Below are positions 31,140-57,614 of a DNA stretch of 64,000 bases, piece by piece. The DNA comes from Bacteroidota bacterium (GTDB lineage: Bacteria; Bacteroidota; Bacteroidia; Palsa-948), in contig JACRAM010000054.1 in the NCBI GenBank assembly GCA_016213405.1, positions 1 to 64,000 on the forward strand, in the 5' to 3' direction. Each line of letters opens with the position of its first letter. Within the stretch, counting starts at the first letter, position 1. Below the pieces are notes generated by a model. That model saw only the letters and a program-made list of their open reading frames with translations, was not told where the DNA came from and did not search any database. Position numbers and translations under genes: made by a program.

Positions 31140-31370
31140 AAGAAATGATATTCCTTGTGTAGGATAAACTATTCCTATTGAAAGAATTGTTATTCCTCCA
31201 CAAAGAATTCTTATTCTTCCACAAAGAATTGTTATTCTTCCACAAAGAATTCTTATTCTTCCACAAAGAATTGTTATTCTTCCACAAAGAATTGTTATTC
31301 TTCCACAAAGAATTGTTATTCTTCCACAAAGAATTGTTATTCCTTCATAAAGAATTGTTATTCTTCCACG
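31140..31370. repeat. 21-bp minisatellite, 11 units
   Basis: Eleven 21-bp units start with AAGAATTGTTATTC or close variants and end with TTCCACA. The middle seven are nearly identical and the outer ones are degenerate. There are no spacers, so it is not a CRISPR. Because 21 is a multiple of three, both strands stay open and can be read as heptads (KELLFFH or WKNNNSL), but neither looks like a real protein. It lies 54 bp past the end of the leftward gene at 31424-31789. A second 21-bp array is at 54749-54916. Confidence 0.85.
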
Positions 31371-31423: not shown

Positions 31424-31789
31424 TTATTGAGTGGGTGGTTTAGGCGGACGACCTGTGTGTGGTTTTTCGGGCTGAACGCCATAATCGCGCAGCGTTTCGC
31501 TGTGAATGCCATAAAGTCCTTTGATGATATGCACATCCCCGTTATACAAGCCCTCCGATTTCTTAACATCGCTCTGATAAACATCAAACGCTTCATTGGC
31601 TTTTGTTTGCGCATCTTTTGCCGTGTTCCATGATTTTGTGAGGGCGGCTTCAGATTCCTGATATGTCTTTTGAATCATGTCGGGCGGAAGCCGTTTTTTC
31701 GTATCGTCCTTGTGCTTTTCAATGCCATTGCCCATGTTTTCTAAATTCTCCTTGAGCGCTGAATACTCTTTGTCTTTGATATCTGCCAT
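31424..31789 (-). CDS. Small helical protein with proline-rich tail
   Basis: 121 residues, no signal peptide. Mostly charged helix (DKEYSALKENLENMGNGIEK, then YQESEAALTKSWNTAKDAQT) and a C-terminal tail KPHTGRPPKPPTQ that could bind a partner. No family is recognised. A protein of the same length and layout (helices, then a Pro tail) is encoded at 55009-55374. Both genes lie next to 21-bp minisatellites, here downstream of the stop. The two sequences do not align well enough by eye to call them homologous. Confidence 0.65.
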   Translation of the reverse strand: MADIKDKEYSALKENLENMGNGIEKHKDDTKKRLPPDMIQKTYQESEAALTKSWNTAKDAQTKANEAFDVYQSDVKKSEGLYNGDVHIIKGLYGIHSETLRDYGVQPEKPHTGRPPKPPTQ

Positions 31790-45769: not shown

Positions 45770-48700
45770 TTACTTAATGCGCTTTCCGTTTTTGAAAAAA
45801 GCAACAAAAGCACCTGCATATCCCTGCGCTTTTAACTGGTCTTTGTACTCGGTCGCCTTCTCATATTCCCATGTTTGAAATTCACCGGCAGTATATTTAT
45901 AAACTCTATTTTCAATATACTCTTTTATATTTTTCGCTCCTTTGAATGTTGTGGCGTATTGCGATGCCGGGATTTGAGTTGAACTTGACATGATCTGTAT
46001 CCTGTAAATAACAGATGAAGAGGTATCTGCTGGTGAAACCAGAGGATTGGGATTGGGATTGGGATTAGGATTAGGATTAGGATTTGGAACAGGATTAGGA
46101 TTAGAGTTATTATTACTGTTTCCACTTATGTTCATCTGGCGTTTCTTTTCGCTGAAGATAAAATCAACCTGAAATTCTTTTGCGCCATCAAAACTTACGG
46201 TGTATTCCGGTTCCTGCAATGTAAATTGATCGCCAAAAATATTATTCACAGTTACCTTGTATTCTCCCGCCTCAGGCGCATAAAGGGTATAACTGCCATC
46301 ACTGGAGGTGAGGGCTGTAAAACTATTGCCGGCAGAATCGGTTGCAACTACCCTTATGTTCGCAACGGATGTCATGCCATTGGAAGAAAATTCATCTCTG
46401 AGCACAATGATGTGCCCGATTACCCTATAGCTTTGAGCAAAAGGGATGTAAAATGTGGTATCGCGAATAACCTTTGCCTTTTGCAATTGCCCGTTAATGT
46501 TGTATACGTCTTTCAGGTTAACGAGAGGATACACGCGCAAATCAAACTCTCCTTCAGGAATATGATAATACATTATCTGACCGAAATTATCTGTAACTAA
46601 TTCGATAGGGATGAATTGCCCGCGTTGCTTTACAGCTGTATTGGTCACGGAATCCATTTGCGATTCACGGTCAACAGAAATAACAATATCAGAAATTCCC
46701 TGCTCATTGTTATCCATTATTTTATTGCCGTTAATATCTTTAAAACATACCACTTTCAAATCATAATATTTTATTCCGGGCTGAGGTATGTCAAAAGTTT
46801 TTCTGAAGCCAAGGTTAAGGTAATATTTTCTGTTGTATATTTTTGCTCCTTCAGCGGTCACCCTGCTGGAGAAATACATGTTGTTGTCAACAAAGAATCT
46901 CCAGTCGTGATCAAAAAAGAAAGTGAAGCGGGCATTCAAAGTAATCCGTTCTGAATTGGCGAGCGCTTCATAATAATAGCTGTCATACGAAGACACGAGC
47001 ATTTTTTTATTGAAGTAATATTTCTCAAAATGCGGGGTGATTCGTATGGATTTGCTATAACTGTTGAAATAATAATAATCCTTCTGGGTATTCATATCAT
47101 GAGGTCCGTAGAAATAAAGAATATTAACTCCCCAATATTTCTGAATCATGTTCACTCCTGCATTGGCGTTAAAGAAAGAACTTTTTGAATAAGGTGATGG
47201 AGTTCCTATTGTAGAATCAATTGCAAACAAAATATAAGTATAACCGAAAGCAATAAAAGGGCTTATTAAACTGTGCGTGTTATTTTTATTGCTTAATCTG
47301 AAAGCAAGTTTAGGCGATATGCTTGAAAAGCGGGAAGTAATGCTATCGCCATTGTAATTGATTTTTAAATTTCTATGGTAGATGTGATCGAAAACAGGTC
47401 CTGCTGAAAGAGAAAGATGTGAATTCACTTTGTCCACTATTTCCGTTTTGTAATTTCCGGCAAGCAAATATTTTTCAGGATATAAGATTCCCTGGTTGTA
47501 GATGGTAGGATCCATCTGATTAATATTTATACCGCTGTTGAGATAGTATTTATTATTTATAAAATACTGTCCGTTGCCGTTGACAAGAATTCTTCCATTG
47601 GATTGAGAAAAATATTTTGATGTATAATTAACGTTTAATCGCGCGTGCGCTTTTTTAAGATTCATCCAATATTGAAGCTGTCCGCCATATCCATAGAAAG
47701 TTGCGCTGGGGTCTGCAGTAGTAATGAAATTGCCATTTGCATCAGTGAACGTTTGATTATCGTATACGTGGTTAGTTTGTGAAACTCCCAGCAAAAGGGC
47801 TACGCGGTGACCGGGTAAAAAGGGATAACTGGCGCGGGCTGACAAACCATAACTTTGAACTTTATTATAGTCATCAGAAATAAATGCTAAGGCAGAACTA
47901 AAATCTATAGACTTCCCCAGCATAATATCATGCTGAACATCGCCTGAATAAACCGGAGTTCCAACAGCCGCAGTGAATACACCGCTTATTTTCTGGTCAG
48001 GTTTTATTTTATAACTGCCGCCTATTCCCCGCCCACCGACACCTAACATACTTATTCCATACGAACCTATATCGCCCGCCATTGCCTGCCATTTATCTGC
48101 TGTGTAGATGGCGCGCATGCGCGTTCGCTGCCAAAGCGATTTTGCCAGATAAGGGTCATTCCCGTATCCCGACAGCGGAAGCCCCGGAATGCGAAGTGAG
48201 TAATTAAGTTTGTCGTCATTCTTAAATACCAGATCGCCATATGCGCCAAACACTATTCGCGGGTCAAATTCTGAAAGAAGATTGATGAGCTGAACATCTA
48301 TGGTGAGAGGAGAAAACCGCTCGGCAAGCACATTGTAATAATTGCTTTCAAGATATTTAAATAGTATGGATGTCTTTTTTACAAGAGTATCTGAAGTGGC
48401 AATTATTTTAACAGACATTTTTTGAAAATCTCTGTTCCACACGCCATTTTCTTCAAAAGGAATATATTTTACATGATACGTAAGGATGGTATCAAGGTGA
48501 GGTTTTAATTCAATGGATGTAAAATATTTATTTGCAAATGTGCCGTACATTTCCAATGAACTTCCGATGGTGAACTCCAGTTTCACCATCTCGCTGCCGT
48601 TTCCTTTATTCGACAACTTTACAGACATGGGAGCATATTCAGCATAGCGGTCAAAATAAATGGTTCGCTGAAGAGGGAAAACATCCCACCGTGTTTTTTT

Positions 48701-49237
48701 AGGGATGGTAACATAACATGCTTTACTTATCGAATACTGGTTTTTGTCAGAGAAAAGAGAACGAGTTGAAATCAACGTGGCGTTAATGATGTAGGACGTT
48801 CCGCCTGTGGAGGTTCTCGCCAGCGAAATCCGCATGGGTATATATTCGGTTTGTCCGGGATTTATGTTTACTGTTTTTTCGCTTTCAGAAATAAGTTTCC
48901 ATCCGTCAGGAACTGAAATTTTTACAACGCCTTGTACGGGCGCGGCATTTGTATTTGTTATTTTCAGAATATTAAAAAAGGTTGAATCGGTGCCGTGTTC
49001 GGTTTTTTCCTTCACAAACTCCATGAGCACAACGCTGTGGGAAGCCCCATCCCCCGCCTTCCCCGAAGGGGAAGGAGTTTCTCCCCCTTTGGGGGAGACG
49101 GAAGAGGGGGCTGCAGTATCTGCCGCAATAACCGCTGTTGAATCAGGTGCCTGAGCAAATAAATTATTATTTCTTACTAAAGAAAAAAATAAAAGAAAAG
49201 CCAAATAATAGTATATGTTGGTAGTAAATCTTTTCAC
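45770..49237 (-). CDS. Usher-like outer-membrane barrel protein with SPOR domain
   Basis: 1155 residues. A signal peptide ends near LFAQ, then a linker whose residues 41-64 come from a family B palindrome. Two Ig-like domains follow (about 65-165 NEW3-like, VKISVPDGWKLISESE; 170-295). The transmembrane barrel spans about 300-820 with many Tyr-rich strands. After it come an SdrD-B-like module (VCFKDINGNKIMDNNEQG), a carboxypeptidase-like sandwich, an NPNP linker and a SPOR domain (1072-1155, ending GYAGAFVAFFKNGKRIK). The order N-domain, large barrel, C-terminal sandwiches resembles fimbrial ushers, but I see no usher signature. It starts 11 bp after a pilin-like gene. Confidence 0.75.
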   Translation of the reverse strand: MKRFTTNIYYYLAFLLFFSLVRNNNLFAQAPDSTAVIAADTAAPSSVSPKGGETPSPSGKAGDGASHSVVLMEFVKEKTEHGTDSTFFNILKITNTNAAPVQGVVKISVPDGWKLISESEKTVNINPGQTEYIPMRISLARTSTGGTSYIINATLISTRSLFSDKNQYSISKACYVTIPKKTRWDVFPLQRTIYFDRYAEYAPMSVKLSNKGNGSEMVKLEFTIGSSLEMYGTFANKYFTSIELKPHLDTILTYHVKYIPFEENGVWNRDFQKMSVKIIATSDTLVKKTSILFKYLESNYYNVLAERFSPLTIDVQLINLLSEFDPRIVFGAYGDLVFKNDDKLNYSLRIPGLPLSGYGNDPYLAKSLWQRTRMRAIYTADKWQAMAGDIGSYGISMLGVGGRGIGGSYKIKPDQKISGVFTAAVGTPVYSGDVQHDIMLGKSIDFSSALAFISDDYNKVQSYGLSARASYPFLPGHRVALLLGVSQTNHVYDNQTFTDANGNFITTADPSATFYGYGGQLQYWMNLKKAHARLNVNYTSKYFSQSNGRILVNGNGQYFINNKYYLNSGININQMDPTIYNQGILYPEKYLLAGNYKTEIVDKVNSHLSLSAGPVFDHIYHRNLKINYNGDSITSRFSSISPKLAFRLSNKNNTHSLISPFIAFGYTYILFAIDSTIGTPSPYSKSSFFNANAGVNMIQKYWGVNILYFYGPHDMNTQKDYYYFNSYSKSIRITPHFEKYYFNKKMLVSSYDSYYYEALANSERITLNARFTFFFDHDWRFFVDNNMYFSSRVTAEGAKIYNRKYYLNLGFRKTFDIPQPGIKYYDLKVVCFKDINGNKIMDNNEQGISDIVISVDRESQMDSVTNTAVKQRGQFIPIELVTDNFGQIMYYHIPEGEFDLRVYPLVNLKDVYNINGQLQKAKVIRDTTFYIPFAQSYRVIGHIIVLRDEFSSNGMTSVANIRVVATDSAGNSFTALTSSDGSYTLYAPEAGEYKVTVNNIFGDQFTLQEPEYTVSFDGAKEFQVDFIFSEKKRQMNISGNSNNNSNPNPVPNPNPNPNPNPNPNPLVSPADTSSSVIYRIQIMSSSTQIPASQYATTFKGAKNIKEYIENRVYKYTAGEFQTWEYEKATEYKDQLKAQGYAGAFVAFFKNGKRIK
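46043..46106. repeat. GGGATT/GGATTA tandem coding the NP linker
   Basis: On the plus strand GGGATTGGGATTGGGATTAG and further TTAGGA words run for about 64 bases. On the coding strand they give NPNPNPNP. Four or more G-runs make a G-quadruplex possible on the non-coding strand. Confidence 0.7.
49048..49117. repeat. Family B palindromes in frame within the usher-like gene
   Basis: CCTTCCCCGAAGGGGAAGG and TCTCCCCCTTTGGGGGAGA lie side by side. They are read in the minus frame as SSVSPKGGETPSPSGKAGDG just after the signal peptide. The region is a low-complexity linker, so insertion here should be harmless. Confidence 0.75.
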
Positions 49238-49248
49238 CTAAGAGGTTT

Positions 49249-49881
49249 TTATGGGCTCATGAGCAATGTGAATACAATATCATCAGCATAAAAATCAGGC
49301 GTGCTGTTCAATAAACTGGTGGTTACTCCGCAACGGTAAGTAATAGAAATCTGGTCAAGCGTATAAACCAGGTTTTCAGGAGACGGAACATCTTCAATCT
49401 CATCTGCACCGCCACCGCTTCCATCTACTATAGGAACACCAGCACCTGAAGCAGGTAATGGTAAATAAGGAGGACCAGGAAATAAACTAACGCAGGTAAG
49501 ACAGCCACCGCTTATTGAAGCGCTCATTTCTATGGTGCTGAACAAAAGAGTATTGGCGGGATTGGTGCCTGTTATGGCTCCATCGCCATCGTTATCCTGC
49601 GCTTCAACACTTAGTGTCCACTGTGTATAATCATCAATACCATCACCGCCTGGAGGATTATTATCACCGGCAATATCCGTTACAGATATACCAAGAATAG
49701 TCCAGTTGGTGTACGTAATGCCTGCCTTGTATTCTGCAATTGAATTAAAAACAAAATCAAGATTGCCTCCGCCAAGCACTGTTAATCTGACTGATCCGCC
49801 CGGTGTTGAACTTTGTGCGTACAGACAATTCGCTGTATTTATCAAAAACACAATTACAATTGTAAACAAACGTAACATCAT
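49249..49881 (-). CDS. Pilin-like secreted subunit
   Basis: 210 residues. A signal peptide ends near LYAQ. The N-terminal strand SVRLTVLGGGNLDFVFNSIAEYKAGI is shared with the paralogues at 50553 and 53611. Four cysteines (GGCLTCVS, TYRCGVTT plus context) and a terminal strand FYADDIVFTLLMSP recall spore-coat-U/Csu-type pilins, which end in a similar Y-x-D-x-V strand. It lies 11 bp upstream of the usher-like gene and 3 bp after a T9SS-tail remnant. The pilin call is an inference from fold pattern and context. Confidence 0.65.
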   Translation of the reverse strand: MMLRLFTIVIVFLINTANCLYAQSSTPGGSVRLTVLGGGNLDFVFNSIAEYKAGITYTNWTILGISVTDIAGDNNPPGGDGIDDYTQWTLSVEAQDNDGDGAITGTNPANTLLFSTIEMSASISGGCLTCVSLFPGPPYLPLPASGAGVPIVDGSGGGADEIEDVPSPENLVYTLDQISITYRCGVTTSLLNSTPDFYADDIVFTLLMSP

Positions 49882-49884
49882 ATT

Positions 49885-50013
49885 TTAATATTCCTTTAAA
49901 ATTAATAGCTTCTGAAAGTATTCTTTATCCGATAGTGTAACCTTACCTATATATATACCATCAGGCAATCTATCCATTGTTAAATTGAAGAGTGAGTTGA
50001 TAGGGTTGAGCAT
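49885..50013 (-). pseudogene. Remnant 3' end of a T9SS sorting-domain gene
   Basis: 42 codons ending GIYIGKVTLSDKEYFQKLL plus six residues, with TAA at 49885-49887. It matches the end of the complete gene at 50793-53510 (CIGKITLSDKEYFQKLLLLN). The stop is 3 bp before the next ATG, exactly as in the complete copy. It is a leftover of a duplicated junction. Confidence 0.8.
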
Positions 50014-50037
50014 TTAGTATTTTGATAATGAGTAACA

Positions 50038-50277
50038 TTATGCGAAAATTTCTTTTCCAGCCAGGAAATCCTTTATTTCAAAAAGTATTTCCCTTGCAAA
50101 CATTACTCCTCTCATATTCTTCGTTTCAGGGTCAATTAGAAGCGTATATTTTTTTCGTTTATCAGGGGGTAATTTTTTTAAAGAAGGAAAATGGTTTAAA
50201 GGAAGAATAATTATCCTGTCATCATCCATGTAAACAGTTATTCTTCCTCTTTCTTTGAAAGATATTTTTTCTATCAT
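50038..50277 (-). CDS. DUF2442 protein (second pair)
   Basis: 79 residues, only the DUF2442 core: ISFKERGRITVYMDDDRIIILPLNHFPSLKKL, then RKKYTLLIDPETKNMRG and the closing FEIKDFLAG. Compared with the copy at 10520-10855 it lacks the basic C-terminal tail. The start overlaps the DUF4160 stop by 4 bp. The pair lies between two copies of a T9SS-tail/pilin junction, on the same strand as the surface genes. Confidence 0.8.
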   Translation of the reverse strand: MIEKISFKERGRITVYMDDDRIIILPLNHFPSLKKLPPDKRKKYTLLIDPETKNMRGVMFAREILFEIKDFLAGKEIFA

Positions 50278-50552
50278 TTTAAAGTAAGTTTTATGGGATG
50301 AGTTTCTTTTTTCCCGAATGAATTATATAAATCAATTAATTCTTTCTGATATTTTGTTGCCAGCTTTTTCACTATATTTAATTCTTTTGCGCTAAAATCT
50401 GCCGGATGCATTATTTCTAAATTTTGAAGCCACAATTTACCATAAATGTATTTTGATTTATGTTTACTGAAATGTATATGTGGAGCTTCAGTTTTCACAT
50501 CTTGTGCAAAGATAAAAAATGTAATGAATTTATAGAAAGCAAGAACAGGCAT
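50274..50552 (-). CDS. DUF4160 protein (second pair)
   Basis: 92 residues. The N-terminal half holds the PHIHF motif; the second half LWLQNLEIMHPADFSAKELNIVKKLATKYQKELI follows the DUF4160 pattern (FWLEP...GFSAKEL). It is the intact counterpart of the frameshifted gene at 10852-11135. It begins directly after the stop of a truncated pilin-like gene. A role in a toxin-antitoxin-like pair with DUF2442 is suspected from conserved pairing but not demonstrated. Confidence 0.78.
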   Translation of the reverse strand: MPVLAFYKFITFFIFAQDVKTEAPHIHFSKHKSKYIYGKLWLQNLEIMHPADFSAKELNIVKKLATKYQKELIDLYNSFGKKETHPIKLTLK

Positions 50553-50789
50553 TTATATTTTAAATTTCAAATCCTGAATGTAAAATTTATTTTTATCCAA
50601 CAGAACTTTCTCATGAAAAACATCAATAACTTTTGTGCTTCCACAGCAAACTCCATCTCCAATTGAATTAAAAATAAAATCAAGATTTCCGCCACCCATC
50701 ACTCTCACCCTCACCGAACCGTCTGACTGAGAAAAAACGCATTGATATAAATTCAAAAATAAAAGCAGAATCTGCAAACGTAACATCAT
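50553..50789 (-). pseudogene. Truncated pilin-like paralogue
   Basis: 78 codons. The signal peptide and SVRVRVMGGGNLDFIFNSI match the first 45 or so residues of the subunit at 49249-49881. After FNSI the sequence diverges (GDGVCCGSTKVIDVFHEKVL) and ends at the DUF4160 start. The beta-rich body and terminal strand are lost, so it is probably nonfunctional. The start is 3 bp after the T9SS gene, the same spacing as in the other copy. Confidence 0.75.
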
Positions 50790-50792
50790 ATT

Positions 50793-53510
50793 TTAGTATG
50801 TATTTAGGAGCAATAACTTCTGAAAATATTCTTTATCTGATAATGTAATCTTACCTATACACACTCCATCAGGCAATCCATTTCCGGAAAAGGAAACGTT
50901 CAATGTTCCGCTGTCTGCATTATTATCAAACAATAAGGCAACCTTATTGCCAATTAAATTAAACACTTCAACTTTTACTTTTTCAGGATATGAAAGGTGA
51001 ATAGAGATGGTAGTATTATCATTAAATGGATTTGGATAAACTTCTATCAGATTAATAGGAGTACTTTCTTCTTGAATGTCAGAAGAAGTTATTCTGTAAT
51101 TAATACAAGGACCGCAGTAATCACCATGCGCTAAATGGGCTGACAGCGCGTTTGGACTAATGCAAAGCGTTTGTGGATTGCCGGGATTACCGGGAGGAAT
51201 ATGGCATATCACTACTTTTTCATTTTTGTTTCCGCATTTAAAGTTGCTGCAATCCTGAGGTTGCTGAACAAAGACTGTAACATTATCGTTGCTGCTGCAA
51301 CCATTCATGTCAATGACAGTAACTGTATATGTAGTAGTAACAGTCGGGCTTACTGTAATGCTTTGTGCTGTTTGTCCTGTGCTCCACAAAAAACTATAAG
51401 AGGGTGTGCCTCCGCTTACAATTGCTGTTAATGCAGTGATTTGACCGATAATAATGGTTTGGTCTGCACCGGCATTGGCAACTAATTGAAGCGGTTCAAT
51501 AATTACTACCGAAGCCGTTGCATTGCATCCGTTAGCATCGCTAACAGTTACGCTGTATGTTCCGGCAAACAATCCGGTTGCAGTGGCTGTGGTTTGCCCG
51601 TTGCTCCATACATGTATATAAGGAGGTGTTCCGCCTGAAACGTTTACCGTTGCACTGCCGTTGCTTCCTCCAAAACACGAAACATTTGTTTGGGATGTAA
51701 CTAAAGTAAGAGTCGCAGGTTCTGTAATAATAACTGTTGCAATTGCTGTGCATCCATTGGCATCGGTGATTATAACAGAATAATTTCCTGCCGATAAACC
51801 AGTGGCTGATGAAGTTGTTTGCCCGTTACTCCATACATATATATAAGGCGGTGTTCCGCCTGATGCAGTTACGGATGCGGTTCCATTGTTTCCACCAAAA
51901 CAGGAGGCATTAGTTTGGGTTGCAGTGATAGTGATAGCGGTAGGTTCTGTAATTGAAACAATGCCCGAAGCAGTAGCTCCGCTTGCATCAATTACTACAA
52001 CCGTATAAGTTCCTGCACATAGTCCTGTAGCAGCAGGTGTAGTTTGTCCTGTGGGTGACCAAAAAAATGTGTATGGTGTAGTGCTTCCTGATGGTGTGGC
52101 GGTAGCAGTACCAAGACAACCGCCATTACAAATATTATCAGCGTGAGAAACGCTAACAGTAAGAGGAGTAATTCCGCAAAGGGAAGAAACAACAACTGAA
52201 GGAGTACCAATAGTAGGCGTAAAGTTTATTAAAACTGTAGGAGGCGTAGAAGTATTCGTTGAAAAAGTAATGTCTTGAGTATTACGCATGGCTTCTGTAA
52301 ACACAGCGTTACTTTCATTACATCCACTGTTACCTACAGCATCTGTTTTAATAAAATAAAAATCAAGAGTGCCACCAAAACTGCTAGTGGATCCAACGGT
52401 TGCATATCCTCCATCAGAAGTAATTTGCAATGAATGAGGGAGATCCGCTGCATCACCGTTTGTACCTCCGTATAATTTAGCCCATTGAATATTTCCTGAA
52501 GAATTAATTTTCAGCAGGCATTTATCATAATTTTGAAAAAGATTCTGACCAGTTGCGGCATCTCCTGAAACGATGAATCCTCCATCAGAAGTTTGTTGTA
52601 TATCACTTCCCTCTTCATGGTTAGTTGTTCCATAGGTTTTTGACCACAATACATTTCCATTGCTATTTGTTTTAACTACCAATATATCATGCACTCCTAA
52701 TTGAGAAAAAGGCGATACTGTATGTGAGCCAACAATAATAAACCCACCATCATTGGTTTCTCTCCCGGACCTAAAAACAGTTGACTCAGCAAGACCTGTA
52801 TTACCATATATCTTATTCCAAAGCAAATTGCCACCGGAATCGGTTTTTAATAAAGATGCGCTATTGAAACCAATAGGCGCTTGATTTTGAGTTCCCACCA
52901 AAGCATACCCGTTGTCATTTGTTTGGATTACAAAAGAAGTTGAAGACCCTTGGTCACCAAATACTTTACTCCATTCAAGTGCACCATTTGAATCTGTTTT
53001 CAATAAGTATTTAGTTAAAGAAGTACCAAAACTTGATGTAATCCCGGAAATAATAAATCCTCCGTCTGTTGTTTGTGCCATTGTATTCGCTAAGTCCACA
53101 CCAGATACTCCTCCATATAGTTTAGTCCATAATAAATTCCCGTTCATATCAAATTTGTTTAAATATATTTTTCTCGAAAATTGTCCTACAATGCCGCCAT
53201 GCACACCCGTCCAGATAAATCCTCCATCGTATGTTTGCTGAACAATTCCAGAAAGTCCACTCACAGGCTGATTGATTTGTTTGCTCCATAAAATATTACC
53301 TGAGGCATCCGTTCTTGTAATATTAGAAACACCTGTACGGGGAGCGCCAAACACATATCCTCCATCACTGTTTTGCCAAACACTCATTATGTTCGTAGTT
53401 TGTACCTTATAAACTTTTTGAAATGATGTTTGTCCAAAAAAGATTTGCGGAATAAAAATTCCTGATAATAATATAAGGTAAATGAAAAATGAAAAGATAT
53501 GTTTTTTCAT
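50793..53510 (-). CDS. SprB-repeat surface protein with T9SS sorting domain
   Basis: 905 residues from ATG 53510; an earlier start adds 8 unlikely residues. A signal peptide ends near IFFGQ. Residues about 40-400 contain eight repeats of the type GGFIISGITSS...YLLKTDSNGALEWSKVFG, suggesting a propeller. SprB-type repeats follow at about 465-690 (CFGGNNGTASVTASGGTPPY, ATGLSAGNYSVIITDANGC), then a PKD-like unit and a T9SS sorting domain (EVYPNPFNDNTTISI, ITLSDKEYFQKLLL). It should be exported by the T9SS. The position between pilin-like genes suggests a tip or surface adhesin. Confidence 0.85.
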   Translation of the reverse strand: MKKHIFSFFIYLILLSGIFIPQIFFGQTSFQKVYKVQTTNIMSVWQNSDGGYVFGAPRTGVSNITRTDASGNILWSKQINQPVSGLSGIVQQTYDGGFIWTGVHGGIVGQFSRKIYLNKFDMNGNLLWTKLYGGVSGVDLANTMAQTTDGGFIISGITSSFGTSLTKYLLKTDSNGALEWSKVFGDQGSSTSFVIQTNDNGYALVGTQNQAPIGFNSASLLKTDSGGNLLWNKIYGNTGLAESTVFRSGRETNDGGFIIVGSHTVSPFSQLGVHDILVVKTNSNGNVLWSKTYGTTNHEEGSDIQQTSDGGFIVSGDAATGQNLFQNYDKCLLKINSSGNIQWAKLYGGTNGDAADLPHSLQITSDGGYATVGSTSSFGGTLDFYFIKTDAVGNSGCNESNAVFTEAMRNTQDITFSTNTSTPPTVLINFTPTIGTPSVVVSSLCGITPLTVSVSHADNICNGGCLGTATATPSGSTTPYTFFWSPTGQTTPAATGLCAGTYTVVVIDASGATASGIVSITEPTAITITATQTNASCFGGNNGTASVTASGGTPPYIYVWSNGQTTSSATGLSAGNYSVIITDANGCTAIATVIITEPATLTLVTSQTNVSCFGGSNGSATVNVSGGTPPYIHVWSNGQTTATATGLFAGTYSVTVSDANGCNATASVVIIEPLQLVANAGADQTIIIGQITALTAIVSGGTPSYSFLWSTGQTAQSITVSPTVTTTYTVTVIDMNGCSSNDNVTVFVQQPQDCSNFKCGNKNEKVVICHIPPGNPGNPQTLCISPNALSAHLAHGDYCGPCINYRITSSDIQEESTPINLIEVYPNPFNDNTTISIHLSYPEKVKVEVFNLIGNKVALLFDNNADSGTLNVSFSGNGLPDGVCIGKITLSDKEYFQKLLLLNTY

Positions 53511-53547
53511 GGGAATGAGTTTGTTGTTAAACAATTTAATCTCTAAG

Positions 53548-53590
53548 AAAAAACCCCGATAAAGTATTTCACAATATCGGGGTTCTTTTA
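53548..53590 (-). terminator. Intrinsic terminator after the distal pilin-like gene
   Basis: AACCCCGATA (53552-53561) pairs with TATCGGGGTT (53575-53584), followed on the minus strand by TTTTTTC. It ends the message of 53611-54297 before the SprB-repeat gene. Confidence 0.8.
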
Positions 53591-53610
53591 CTAACCCAAT
53601 GAAATAAGAG

Positions 53611-54297
53611 TTAGAGTGAAGTCAGTTCAAGAAAAACATTGGTTACATACCTGTCCGGAGGAATATTCTGGTCAAGCAGGTTTATTGCCGACATTGGGCT
53701 GTTAGCCGATACGGCTGGAGTAGTGCCGCACTCCCAATTGATAGTGAAATTATTATCTGCCACATCTCCACCGTTTCCGGTACCGGAAGTAAAGAGAATT
53801 ACAGTACCAACACCTGCATATTGAAGTAATCCGTTGGGAATATTGGGAACACCAAGAGCAGAAATGTTATCTGTGTAAGCGCCAGTACGGTCAACGTCAA
53901 GAATAGCGCTACAGCAAGTATTATTTGCTGCAATTGTACCCCAATCGCAGGTGAAACCAACATTATCCAACGCCATGATGTGCGTTGCGTTTGTAGGATC
54001 ATCTGTTCCAATGAGGTTTGCATCTTCTGCGCCCATATCTAACTGCCACTCAGTGGAAGAAGCAATCTGAACATCAGAATCATAAAAGCCATTACCTTGT
54101 GCATTGGTAATGCCGTTTTTGTAATCTTCAATGTCATTAAACACGAACTCAATGTTGCCGCCATTGGTAACATGAATGCGCAAAATCTGAACCAGCGTTA
54201 CTCCCAAGGGAATAACAGCCCTGTCAGAAACCGGCTGTGCCATAGCAGAACCGGCAATTATCATGGCTATGCATGATGCGAGAATTGTTTTTTTCAT
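53611..54297 (-). CDS. Pilin-like secreted subunit, distal copy
   Basis: 228 residues. The signal peptide MKKTILASCIAMIIAGSAMA is classical, not repeat-derived. Residues 38-66 (ILRIHVTNGGNIEFVFNDIEDYKNGI) match the other subunits. Cysteines occur as CDWG, NNTCCSAI and NWECGTTP, and the end RYVTNVFLELTSL has the alternating pattern of a donor/acceptor strand. It has its own terminator and a TACATTTG -7-like box at 54339-54346. With strong expression signals it could be the main structural subunit; this is inference. Confidence 0.68.
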   Translation of the reverse strand: MKKTILASCIAMIIAGSAMAQPVSDRAVIPLGVTLVQILRIHVTNGGNIEFVFNDIEDYKNGITNAQGNGFYDSDVQIASSTEWQLDMGAEDANLIGTDDPTNATHIMALDNVGFTCDWGTIAANNTCCSAILDVDRTGAYTDNISALGVPNIPNGLLQYAGVGTVILFTSGTGNGGDVADNNFTINWECGTTPAVSANSPMSAINLLDQNIPPDRYVTNVFLELTSL

Positions 54298-54338
54298 AGA
54301 TTTTGTTTTTGTTTTTGTTTCGTTTAATTGGATGAATG

Positions 54339-54346
54339 CAAATGTA
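54339..54346 (-). promoter_or_regulatory. Candidate -7 box of the distal pilin-like gene
   Basis: TACATTTG on the minus strand matches TAnnTTTG, 42 bp before the ATG. A TTG 24 bp further upstream is slightly too far for an ideal -33 box. Confidence 0.35.
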
Positions 54347-54474
54347 ATAATAAAATTAAAGCATATTGTTCAATAAAAACTAATTATTTTTTATGAAGTA
54401 TCTGAATACATGATGAAAAAGGAAAAGGTTACTCCCCTGCTACGCTGAAAATAATTAAAGGTTACACGGAAAAC

Positions 54475-54631
54475 CAATTTATTAGGACTTTTACGCAAAA
54501 TGTACAATTCTTGTATTTCTCTGCGGTTCTCAGCGTCATTTTTCTCTGTGAACTCTGCGGTTAAAATTTTTACCGCAGAGAACGCTGAGATTTTCGCAGA
54601 GAGCCGCAGAGTTTGCGTAAGTCCTATTTAT
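54475..54631. repeat. Composite palindrome of about 155 bp
   Basis: Outer arms TTATTAGGACTT...ACGCAAA and TTTGCGTAAGTCCTATTTA are complementary. Inside are CTCTGCGGTTCTCAGCGT against ACGCTGAGA...GAGCCGCAGAG, and the core CTCTGCGGT/ACCGCAGAG around AAAATTTTT. The whole could fold into one long cruciform. It lies in the gap between the leftward subunit gene and the rightward small protein; no ORF is present. The word family recurs at 71-103. Confidence 0.8.
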
Positions 54632-54748
54632 TTTGGTTCGGATTCCTGTAAAGTTAATGCGGAGAAAGGTCTCCTTTAGTAAAACGATTGTTTTTCATCA
54701 GAGTTTCATCCTTTTACTCAAAAAATCAATAATTTTTATCATTCCTAC

Positions 54749-54916
54749 AAACATTTCTGCCATAAAAATAAGTGTGGCAATGGCATCTACAAGTATTTTG
54801 TCAGAGAAAATAAATGTTTTGTCAGAAGAAATAAGTATTTTGTCAGAGAAAATAAATGTTTTGTCAGAGAAAATAAGTGTGGCAATGGAAGCCACAAGTA
54901 TTTTGTCAGAGAAAAT
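54749..54916. repeat. 21-bp minisatellite with two unit types
   Basis: Eight 21-bp units. Type one is AAGTATTTTGTCAGAGAAAA plus T, with an AAATGTTTTGTC variant; type two is AAGTGTGGCAATGG with a variable end. There are no spacers. The plus strand reads as heptads (SILSEKI, NVLSEKI), which suggests a coiled coil, but the ORF has no plausible start or ending. It lies about 90 bp upstream of the gene at 55009 and has the same period as the array at 31140-31370. Confidence 0.85.
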
Positions 54917-55008
54917 AATTAAAGCCATGCACAATATACACTGGCAAGATCCGTTCTCATTTGTATAAATCAGCCCCGATGATGAATCGGGACACAAAAT
55001 TAAATTAA

Positions 55009-55374
55009 ATGAAAATCACTTATCCAACCACCCATGACGGATGGTTAAAACTCGGCAACTTAATATTTGCGAAGAGCGAAAACTTAGGCGATGAACCAGC
55101 CATCAACCCTGCCGATGCTGATCCCAAAAAAGTAGGAACGCTGGCAAGCACTGCCGCAAAAAAACTGGCAACAGGCGCGCAACTTCACAAAGATGCCGAA
55201 ACAAGCAATGAAGCAGGAGAAAAAGATATTACGGAAATGGAATCAGAAATCCGCAGAGTTGCCAAAGTGCTTACCGGCAGGAATCAGAAAAACCCGAAAG
55301 CCACCGGAGTATGGGGATTTACAATGGACGAAAGCAGCGGCACTCCACCGCCTGTGCCTCCTGTTGCCAAGTAA
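55009..55374 (+). CDS. Small helical protein with proline-rich tail (second)
   Basis: 121 residues, no signal peptide. Begins MKITYPTTHDGWLKLGNLIF, then an alanine/lysine-rich helical part (STAAKKLATGAQLHKDAETS, EKDITEMESEIRRVAKVL) and the tail ESSGTPPPVPPVAK. Length and layout equal those of the protein at 31424-31789, and both sit beside a 21-bp minisatellite. The family is unknown to me. A structural or surface-binding role is possible; nothing in the sequence proves it. Confidence 0.65.
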   Translation: MKITYPTTHDGWLKLGNLIFAKSENLGDEPAINPADADPKKVGTLASTAAKKLATGAQLHKDAETSNEAGEKDITEMESEIRRVAKVLTGRNQKNPKATGVWGFTMDESSGTPPPVPPVAK

Positions 55375-55562
55375 GCAAAGAAATTTTCTAAAAATAATCC
55401 TTCTCCACTCAATCGGAGAGGGATTTTTATTTCCATCAGACAAGGAGGGAGAGGTTTCCAATTATTAAAGATTGATAAAACTGAAAAATAATTACATTTG
55501 CCGACAGAAAATCACAAGTAATCGGTGAGCGGTCATCGGTGAACGGTGGATAACAAACAGTT
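55375..55562. repeat. Gap with hairpin and GGTGAGCGGTCATCGGTGAA words
   Basis: CTCCACTCAATCGGAGAG (about 55403-55420) can fold into a small hairpin. AATCGGTGAGCGGTCATCGG (55520-55539) belongs to a word family whose complement (CCGATTACCGATTACC) encodes part of the signal peptide of the next gene. Confidence 0.5.
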
Positions 55563-56372
55563 ATGAGAAATAAATTTCACATATATACATTCTGCCTTTT
55601 ACTGATTACTGGTAACCGATTACCGATTACCTTTCTTAATGCCCAGGATTTTGAAGTTGCCCCCGTAAAAATGCTTTATGACTGCGAGCCCGGGCAAATT
55701 CAAACCAAGACCTTATATATCCGCAATCACGCCAACCAAAAACAGCAATTCAATGTCGTTGCAGTTGATTTGCCTGCTGATAGTTTAGGAAAGAAAAAAA
55801 CTTCTGAAAACAAATCCTGCAAAGACTGGATTACGCTGAATCCCTCATTCTTTGATTTGAATCCGAATGAACAAAAAGAAGTGAAAGTGGTGATGCAGGT
55901 GCCGCCCGGTCATTCAGAAACCCGCTGGTGCATGGTGTTTGTGAGCGCCACCGAAGAACAAACCGCCCTTTCGGCAGACAAACAAATGAAAGGCAGCGTA
56001 AAAGTAAAGCCCCGCATAGGCGTGAAAGTGATTCAATCGCCCAAATCAAATATCAATTACAAGGGAGCCATTTCTAACCTGAAAGAAACAACTCTGCCGG
56101 CAGACACGCTGCGCACGTTTCAGGCAAACATATCAAACACAGGCGACAAAGTAATAGAAGGAAAAATTTATCTCGTATTTTCAAATCTTGAAACAGCAAA
56201 AGAAATAAAAGAAAAACCTCAGCGCATTACCGTGCTTCCGGGCGCAACAAAAAAAATTACCCTCATAATGCCCCCAAAAATCCCTGCCGGAAAATATTCA
56301 CTTGCCGCCATTCTCGACTATGGCAACAACTCCGCGCTGGAAGCAGTTCAGATGAATGTTGAAGTGAAGTAA
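55563..56372 (+). CDS. PapD-like two-domain periplasmic protein (putative chaperone)
   Basis: 269 residues. The signal peptide contains LLLITGNRLPITFLNAQ, encoded by GATTACCGATTACC words. Two Ig-like domains follow: residues about 25-150 (FEVAPVKMLYDCEPGQIQTK, then WITLNPSFFDLNPNEQKEVK) and about 160-269 (RTFQANISNTGDKVIEGKIY, LPGATKKITLIMPPKIPAGK). The F-x-L-NP-x-E-x-K segment resembles the F1-G1 region of PapD-type and DUF916-type proteins. It could chaperone the pilin-like subunits encoded at 49-54 kb. There is no lipobox. Confidence 0.62.
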   Translation: MRNKFHIYTFCLLLITGNRLPITFLNAQDFEVAPVKMLYDCEPGQIQTKTLYIRNHANQKQQFNVVAVDLPADSLGKKKTSENKSCKDWITLNPSFFDLNPNEQKEVKVVMQVPPGHSETRWCMVFVSATEEQTALSADKQMKGSVKVKPRIGVKVIQSPKSNINYKGAISNLKETTLPADTLRTFQANISNTGDKVIEGKIYLVFSNLETAKEIKEKPQRITVLPGATKKITLIMPPKIPAGKYSLAAILDYGNNSALEAVQMNVEVK

Positions 56373-56414: not shown

Positions 56415-57614
56415 ATGAAGAAAAAAATTCTGATACTCTTAATTTTCTCCCTTCCCTTCGGGAAGGGATGGGGATGGGCTTTTGCACAAACCCAGCAAAC
56501 CTTTTACGATGCCGATAAAAAAATAAAAAAAGAAATCTTTCATACAAAAAAAGAATCGGGAAAAACAATGAAGGATGGTTTGTATCAAATCTATTATGAG
56601 AATGGCAAACCCTGGCAGGAAGGAAATTACAAAGAAGATAAATTAGAAGGAGACTGGAAGATTTATTTTAACAACGGGCAGCTGAAACAAACCGTTCATT
56701 ATGAAAACGGACGGAGGCAGGGAAACTCAAAAATATATTATGACGATGGCATACTCTTTCAGGAACTGATTTACAAAGATGACAAGATGGATGGGAAAAA
56801 TATTTTTCATCACACCAACGGAAAAATCATGGAAGTGTCGGAATACAAAAACGACACGCTCAACGGAGAAAGCAGGGGCTTTAATGAAAACGGAAGCAGG
56901 TCATTCAACAGAATATATCTCAACGGCAAGCGCAACGGCAACTGCGAAGGGTTTTATGATAACGGATTGCAAAAAGAAAAATATACCTGCGTAAATGATT
57001 TGTATGAAGGAGAATTTATTTCGTATTACAAAGATTCGCTCAACGGAAAACAAAAAACCTGCACTTACAAAAACGGAAAGCTCAACGGAACCTTCACCGG
57101 ATATTATTCCAACGGCTCCATTGAAATGAAAGGAACCTACGCGAACGATTCCCTGCAGGGAGAATACACGCATTATTTCTCATCTAAAACTCAGGGAGTT
57201 CAGCAAGGAATACCTGTGGAAAAAGGTAATTATAAGAACAACTCGCGCACCGGATTATGGACATCGTGGTATCCGGATGGGAAGAATTACACTGCCGGAA
57301 ATTTTGTCAACGGAAAATATGAGGGCGAATGGAAAGTATATCACCCAAACGGAAATCTGAAACAAACGGGCGCTTACTCAAACGGAATTGAAAACGGTTT
57401 TTGGAAATACTACCATCCCAACGGCAACACGTATATGGAAGGAAAATATACTGATGGAAAACAAGAAGGACCCTGGAAAGTTTATTACGAAGATGGAAAA
57501 CTACTTGCCGATTACAACTGGCTGAACGGAATCCTTAATGGCAAACAAACTGCCTACGATAAAGAAGGAAAAGTGGCTGAAGTTAAAGTTTATGAAAACG
57601 GAGTGCAGAAATGA
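56415..57614 (+). CDS. MORN-repeat protein (YwqK-like)
   Basis: 399 residues. The signal peptide FSLPFGKGWGWAFAQ is encoded by a family B palindrome. From residue 50 on there are about 15 MORN_2-type units with the pattern GxWKxYYxNGxLKxxGxYxNGxxxG (examples YENGKPWQEGNYKEDKLEG, YHPNGNLKQTGAYSNGIENG). The C-terminus ends VYENGVQK. MORN_2 proteins in Bacteroidota are exported, and databases often label them YwqK-family antitoxin, but a toxin partner is not visible here. It follows the chaperone-like gene by 42 bp and may belong to the same unit. Confidence 0.85.
   Translation: MKKKILILLIFSLPFGKGWGWAFAQTQQTFYDADKKIKKEIFHTKKESGKTMKDGLYQIYYENGKPWQEGNYKEDKLEGDWKIYFNNGQLKQTVHYENGRRQGNSKIYYDDGILFQELIYKDDKMDGKNIFHHTNGKIMEVSEYKNDTLNGESRGFNENGSRSFNRIYLNGKRNGNCEGFYDNGLQKEKYTCVNDLYEGEFISYYKDSLNGKQKTCTYKNGKLNGTFTGYYSNGSIEMKGTYANDSLQGEYTHYFSSKTQGVQQGIPVEKGNYKNNSRTGLWTSWYPDGKNYTAGNFVNGKYEGEWKVYHPNGNLKQTGAYSNGIENGFWKYYHPNGNTYMEGKYTDGKQEGPWKVYYEDGKLLADYNWLNGILNGKQTAYDKEGKVAEVKVYENGVQK

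Follow-up and report, generated by a model that had tools for sequence, protein, structure and literature searches.

A candidate chaperone-usher-like pathway of the Bacteroidota for filaments of the TLP-1 type

Chaperone-usher pili are textbook surface fibres of the Proteobacteria; their pilins carry an N-terminal donor strand, and their tip subunits have none and are often two-domain proteins. Type V pili and the type IX secretion system (T9SS) are the systems commonly ascribed to the Bacteroidota; type V pilins are lipoprotein precursors processed by proteases. Donor-strand assembly has been proposed for the Bacteroidota type V pili built from FimA/Mfa1 (PMC4789730). We found no description of a Bacteroidota chaperone-usher system in the literature searched. 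The structures closest to the proteins described here are the entries 9IKJ and 9IKK, titled "Cryo-EM structure of TLP-1a/TLP-1b" and released on 2024-11-13, each with 16 modelled chains. We take TLP-1 of these entries to be the Tsinghua Lotus Pond filaments of the CryoSeek study. PMC12967142 cites the CryoSeek paper (PNAS 2024 e2417046121).

The locus analysed here (Table 1) lies in a 64,000-nucleotide stretch of DNA, the whole of which we call the window. In our judgement its genes probably specify a diverged form of the chaperone-usher pathway, the product of which would be a TLP-1-type surface filament with subunit T at its tip. A preliminary description of this DNA had suggested a chaperone-usher-like fibre system, and that suggestion is supported by the co-occurrence of the genes, the usher-like predicted fold of the barrel protein B, the homology of subunit S to TLP-1 and the link of the PapD-like protein P to PapD_N proteins.

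Gene content of the locus and an inserted adhesin gene

Table 1. Features of the locus, in window positions
Feature	Position	Strand	Size or property	Remark or basis
Usher-like outer-membrane protein B	45770..49237	-	1155 aa, signal peptide	Pfam, AlphaFold2, Foldseek
Barrel region of B (residues 311-815)	46793..48307	-	~26 strands	DSSP of model
SPOR-like domain of B (residues 1077-1149)	45791..46009	-	clade-specific	Strand/helix order of model, Pfam
Subunit T ("sub1")	49249..49881	-	210 aa	Proposed tip subunit without N-terminal donor-like strand
Subunit S ("sub2")	53611..54297	-	228 aa	TLP-1 family; proposed main subunit of the fibre
Alternating strand at the N-terminus of mature S, DRAVIPLGVTLVQILRI	54175..54225	-	proposed donor strand	Alignment; missing in T
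PapD-like two-Ig-domain periplasmic protein P	55563..56372	+	269 aa	Proposed chaperone, divergently transcribed
T9SS-sorted SprB-repeat protein	50793..53534	-		Local insertion between S and T
Truncated copy of T 5' end	50553..50789	-	78 aa	Partial tandem duplication product

On the minus strand the genes run, from upstream to downstream, S, the SprB-repeat protein, the truncated T copy, T and B. The spacing of 11 bp between a subunit gene and the barrel gene that had been noted earlier is exact, T stopping 11 nt before B. All four of S, T, P and B begin with what looks like a signal peptide, and in most of them a conserved Gln comes next. No lipobox was seen in the sequences of S and T, neither gave a type V pilin Pfam match, and the T9SS C-terminal sorting domain is absent from both, Por_Secre_tail being confined to the SprB protein.

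The barrel, two full subunits, the PapD-like protein and the T9SS protein of the preliminary description are all there, but its third subunit and the membership of the T9SS protein in the system did not stand. It had counted three related secreted subunits: two, S and T, are intact and homologous, and the third is a truncated duplicate. A partial tandem duplication connects 49733-49973 with 50656-50881 (107 nt at 83% and 66 nt at 79%). It copied the last part of the SprB gene together with the first part of the T gene, leaving behind a shortened T copy and a remnant of the sorting domain, and thus accounts for the apparent "third subunit". A third functional subunit at 50553-50789 was accordingly rejected, the product being a truncated duplicate of the 5' end of 49249-49881.

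The T9SS adhesin-type repeat protein does contain SprB repeats, and its sorting domain is of type A, but it lies outside the conserved set. In L027, L029, L031-L034 and L036, from the same genus and class, S and T adjoin with no SprB gene between them, and we rejected the protein as a component of the system: it is a window-specific insertion, missing at that place in the relatives examined. The cluster might still be read as a T9SS adhesin cluster whose chief product is the SprB-repeat protein, with the other genes aiding its display. The protein does sit within the cluster and bear a type A sorting tail; it is nevertheless missing from this position in relatives, its junction bears a partial duplication typical of recent rearrangement, and S and T have no sorting tail. 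The comparative data already contradict this reading, which we regard as scarcely credible.

A MORN-repeat protein is encoded immediately downstream of P, at 56415-57614, and a MORN-type gene adjoins P in L027, L029 and L031. The two proteins are possibly linked in function; as a core component the MORN protein was rejected, since it recurs in several type A loci but lies outside the core set. Arrays of a 21-nt tandem repeat occur at 54796-54918 and 31181-31369, each adjoining an ORF of 121 aa whose end is proline-rich (55009-55374, beside P, and 31424-31789); no relation between these two ORFs was detectable.

Conservation of the four-gene set

In an even sample of 247 class genomes, with short fragmentary barrel matches left out of the B count, S was present in 38, P in 42 and B in 40, and all three together in 37, about 15% of the genomes sampled (Fisher p 1e-37 to 1e-42 for co-occurrence). 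A barrel search of 60 relatives recovered full-length B homologues, and P, S and T were also present at the fetched barrel loci with intact flanks; at L028 and the split G004 contigs, contig ends lie nearby and the partner genes are on other contigs. When GTDB contigs were scanned with the alignment of type B (TLP-like) subunits, 80 loci were found, mostly of uncultured Bacteroidota but also of Flavicella, Wenyingzhuangia and a Flavobacterium single cell. All four genes were found in 64 of these and P, B and two S-like genes in 4 more, and most of the remainder are cut off by contig ends. The order P-S-T-B occurs in 62 of 88 barrel-bearing loci, S-T-B-P in 8 and P'-S-T-B in 6, and P-S-T-B or a close variant of it in 82. 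The median gap between T and B is 6 nt. Pairwise identities of P, S, T and B are correlated over the 88 loci (rho 0.62-0.83), a correlation to which shared ancestry alone contributes. The occurrence of the same genes together elsewhere, which the preliminary description had put forward as a check, is very strongly upheld by the 37 genomes with the joint set and the 82 loci with the common order.

Some loci show further genes. The type A locus L032:5298-6724 has two tandem S paralogues before T. A secreted multi-domain FKBP-type prolyl isomerase of ~520 aa is encoded beside the set in 13 loci (L133, L141 and 11 further), and an OmpA/CarboxypepD_reg protein in some other loci (L037, L038).

The barrel, the subunits and the PapD-like protein

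The AlphaFold2 model of B (32 homologues, pLDDT 81.9, pTM 0.54) begins with two Ig-like sandwiches at residues 70-300, followed by a barrel of about 26 long strands at residues 311-815 (DSSP of the model), two sandwiches of the SdrD_B/CarboxypepD_reg-like type at 824-1030, a disordered Pro-Asn linker, and a SPOR-like beta-alpha-beta-beta-alpha-beta domain at 1077-1149. It thus bears out the large barrel flanked by Ig-like and sandwich domains that had been described from the sequence, as well as the SPOR domain, for which the Pfam match of the window protein is weak (0.26) and 8 of 32 members match, the best at 2.7e-6. No plug domain was seen in the model, either N-terminal or inserted in the barrel; no inter-strand insert longer than about 22 residues occurs in 311-815, which excludes an inserted one.

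An unbiased Foldseek search of 350,542 PDB chains with B placed FimD first and third to eighth (3.7e-11 to 4e-9) and PapC tenth. The likeness to ushers first suggested from the letters thus holds in structure prediction, FimD and PapC being the best PDB barrel matches; TonB-dependent receptors start near 1e-6, about five orders behind. The TM-scores of B against ushers are low (0.13-0.36), and the likeness is therefore one of architecture and not of close similarity. PF00577 (Usher) matched none of the 32 barrels and, with a positive E. coli control, gave nothing above cut-off in 198 phylum genomes and nothing in 119 class genomes; a profile of B gave no signal (0.5%) against five ushers of E. 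coli K-12.

That receptors also occur in the fold search, and that SPOR-type domains are common in many other Bacteroidota proteins, would suit a different role for B, as a peptidoglycan-tethered surface barrel or receptor whose small partner proteins are ligand-binding accessory subunits and form no fibre. We consider this very unlikely: the ushers lead the receptors by that wide interval, the modelled B has neither an N-terminal nor an inserted plug, and those members of the S family with solved structures form cryo-EM assemblies in which 16 chains are modelled.

S and T are homologous (hhalign 99%). The shared motif reported earlier as GGxL/IxFVFN holds for the two full subunits in the form GGN[IL][ED]F[VI]FN; at the DNA level, with as many as 2 mismatches allowed, it was counted 11 times; the shuffle mean was 5.0 and none of 100 shuffles reached 11, which taken alone is a weak result. 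Searched against the PDB, an S profile of 17 sequences found only two real relatives, TLP-1 and TLP-2 of 9IKJ/9IKK, and hmmsearch matches S to these chains over the full mature length (6e-35 for 9IKK and 2e-33 for 9IKJ). T matches the same chains from residue 17-19 onward, with the N-terminal strand excluded. The single-subunit AlphaFold model of S is poor (pLDDT 57); 9IKJ and 9IKK nonetheless top its Foldseek list, with a TasA fibre third and the CsuA/B complex far down. As S is homologous to the TLP-1 protomer, the locus points to genes that probably build such filaments.

The alternating terminal strand ascribed to the subunits is a conserved N-terminal feature of S, but T is without it. 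The first mature residues in 97 S proteins read nVTITMDLQPILQL, a strict hydrophobic alternation V-x-I-x-M-x-L directly after the signal peptide; the window version is AVIPLGVTLVQIL, and residues ~5-20 of the 9IKJ/9IKK chains read NVTVTMDLQPVLQL. The S model is matched from within its first 28 positions by 87 of 88 S proteins; of 65 T proteins, 63 start to match it at position 30 or later, as does 1 of the 88 S proteins. In five T proteins, which have two domains and measure 441-461 aa, an additional N-terminal domain precedes the subunit-like one. We infer from these alignments that the N-terminal strand of S may be a donor strand crossing between subunits. T would be the tip subunit, as suggested by the missing strand, the position of its gene beside B and the two-domain forms in some clades. 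Distant P-S-B sets, here called type C, occur in L190-L195, with subunits of ~180 aa, in several copies at some loci, that read TTVNITLNDVISID...GTYTQTVTYTATA and barrels of ~935 aa; S and the type C subunits compare at 97.6%. L192 and L195 encode two-domain-sized proteins of ~477 aa.

P gives weak Pfam matches to fn3_5, PapD_N and WxLIP. The window protein scores 17.3 bits against PapD_N, whose cut-off is 23, and 4 of 15 P members have PapD_N matches below cut-off; WxLIP_PGBD is reached by 12 of the 15 (best 2e-6), and EfmWxLIP1 matches at 0.003. A chaperone at L207, a locus from another part of the phylum, is homologous to P (hhalign 97.9%; 3.5e-12) and clears the PapD_N cut-off (27.8 vs 23 bits), and its neighbours are small secreted subunit-like proteins and a putative barrel protein bearing CarboxypepD_reg. 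This intermediate links P to PapD chaperones. The PapD-like protein described earlier is thus present, at 55563-56372(+), and we propose, on the strength of these profile matches, that P is a candidate two-domain PapD-superfamily chaperone. Across the P alignment the basic residue (Arg8 type) in the cleft of chaperone-usher chaperones is not conserved: at the position facing FimC TRVIY, the type A members nearest to the window protein have K/R, and different residues stand there in the others. Profile comparison of P with the E. coli K-12 chaperones gave 16%.

The resemblance of P to WxLIP proteins, the TasA fibre as third Foldseek match of S, and the want of sequence similarity between B and PF00577 are what would be expected of a convergent system, in which B is a generic outer-membrane pore, S self-polymerises outside in the manner of TasA, P is a WxLIP/TapA-like folding helper and no usher-type catalysis takes place. 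Yet the best structural matches of B are ushers rather than generic barrels, P connects through L207 to PapD_N proteins, and at L199, a loosely related phylum locus outside the class, a P-like chaperone adjoins a protein with sub-threshold Usher similarity; we think convergence improbable. At L204, also outside the class, the neighbours of a P-like chaperone are a DUF4402 protein and a protein of 1491 aa whose SPOR match falls below the cut-off.

Proposed pathway and comparison with known systems

We present a hypothetical scheme for the chaperone-usher-like pathway preferred here. P, S, T and B, on which signal peptides are seen, would reach the periplasm by the Sec route, where P would cap the folding subunits. 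Going by the usher-like architecture of B, chaperone-subunit complexes would dock on its N- and C-terminal periplasmic domains and the fibre would grow through its pore. T, having no donor strand, would be the first at the barrel and so become the tip; S would follow, each S N-terminal strand filling the groove of the previous subunit, as its sequence suggests. The SPOR-like domain presumably tethers B to peptidoglycan in this clade. The filament would probably serve in adhesion or biofilm formation.

With no PF00577 match, no plug and no conserved cleft residue, and with several other features of chaperone-usher systems present, the system is a variant and not a member of the classical families. 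From sequences and models we rate it as a putative deep lineage of Bacteroidota chaperone-usher systems that has no plug and whose usher, in the present case, bears a SPOR domain. It is also reasonably likely that the Bacteroidota and neighbouring lineages have their own, largely unrecognised chaperone-usher branch, with plug-less ushers sometimes tied to peptidoglycan by SPOR domains, with TLP-1-type filaments, with three or more subtypes (A, B and, more remote, the C of L190-L195), and, beyond the class, with P-like chaperones that adjoin other putative fibre genes (L199, L201-L204, L207). The locus offers a candidate assembly machine for TLP-1, an orphan environmental filament from pond water, and opens donor-strand exchange beyond the known usher families to direct testing. 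The set is to be found in about 15% of the sampled class genomes, and also in cultured marine genera such as Flavicella and Wenyingzhuangia.

WxL-interacting proteins are Gram-positive wall proteins, and we know of none with a barrel or a TLP-type subunit as partner; EfmWxLIP1 (9I1Y/9I25) has the Ig-like domain type in common with P. The type V pili are likewise Bacteroidota surface fibres, but the present system has a chaperone and a barrel of its own. The archaic (sigma) chaperone-usher pili (Csu/CupE, spore coat U) are approached by the type C subunits, whose ending in GTYTQTVTYTATA recalls the C-terminal strand of spore coat U pilins; this is a lead only, and SCPU (PF05229) gave no Pfam match in 17 S members.

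The Fim and Pap systems of E. coli (FimC/PapD, FimD/PapC, FimA) differ in that a sequence relation of usher and pilin is undetectable: direct homology was rejected as profile comparison gave no signal, and the signal peptide was the sole match of the S profile to the E. coli K-12 pilins. B is also unlike the E. coli ushers in its two N-terminal Ig domains, absent plug and added SPOR domain. The two systems are alike in their gene set of chaperone, usher and subunits, in having a major subunit that bears an N-terminal strand next to a tip subunit, here a proposed one, that lacks it, and in the build of the usher, with an N-terminal domain, a large barrel and two C-terminal sandwiches, FimD being the best PDB match. 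TLP-1a and TLP-1b are known here as filament structures alone. The window S is of type A (GGNIEFVFN) and more distant from TLP-1a/TLP-1b than type B, whose subunits share with the filaments the N-terminal sequence type NVT[IV]TMDLQP[IV]LQL; S itself is homologous to them over its full mature length.
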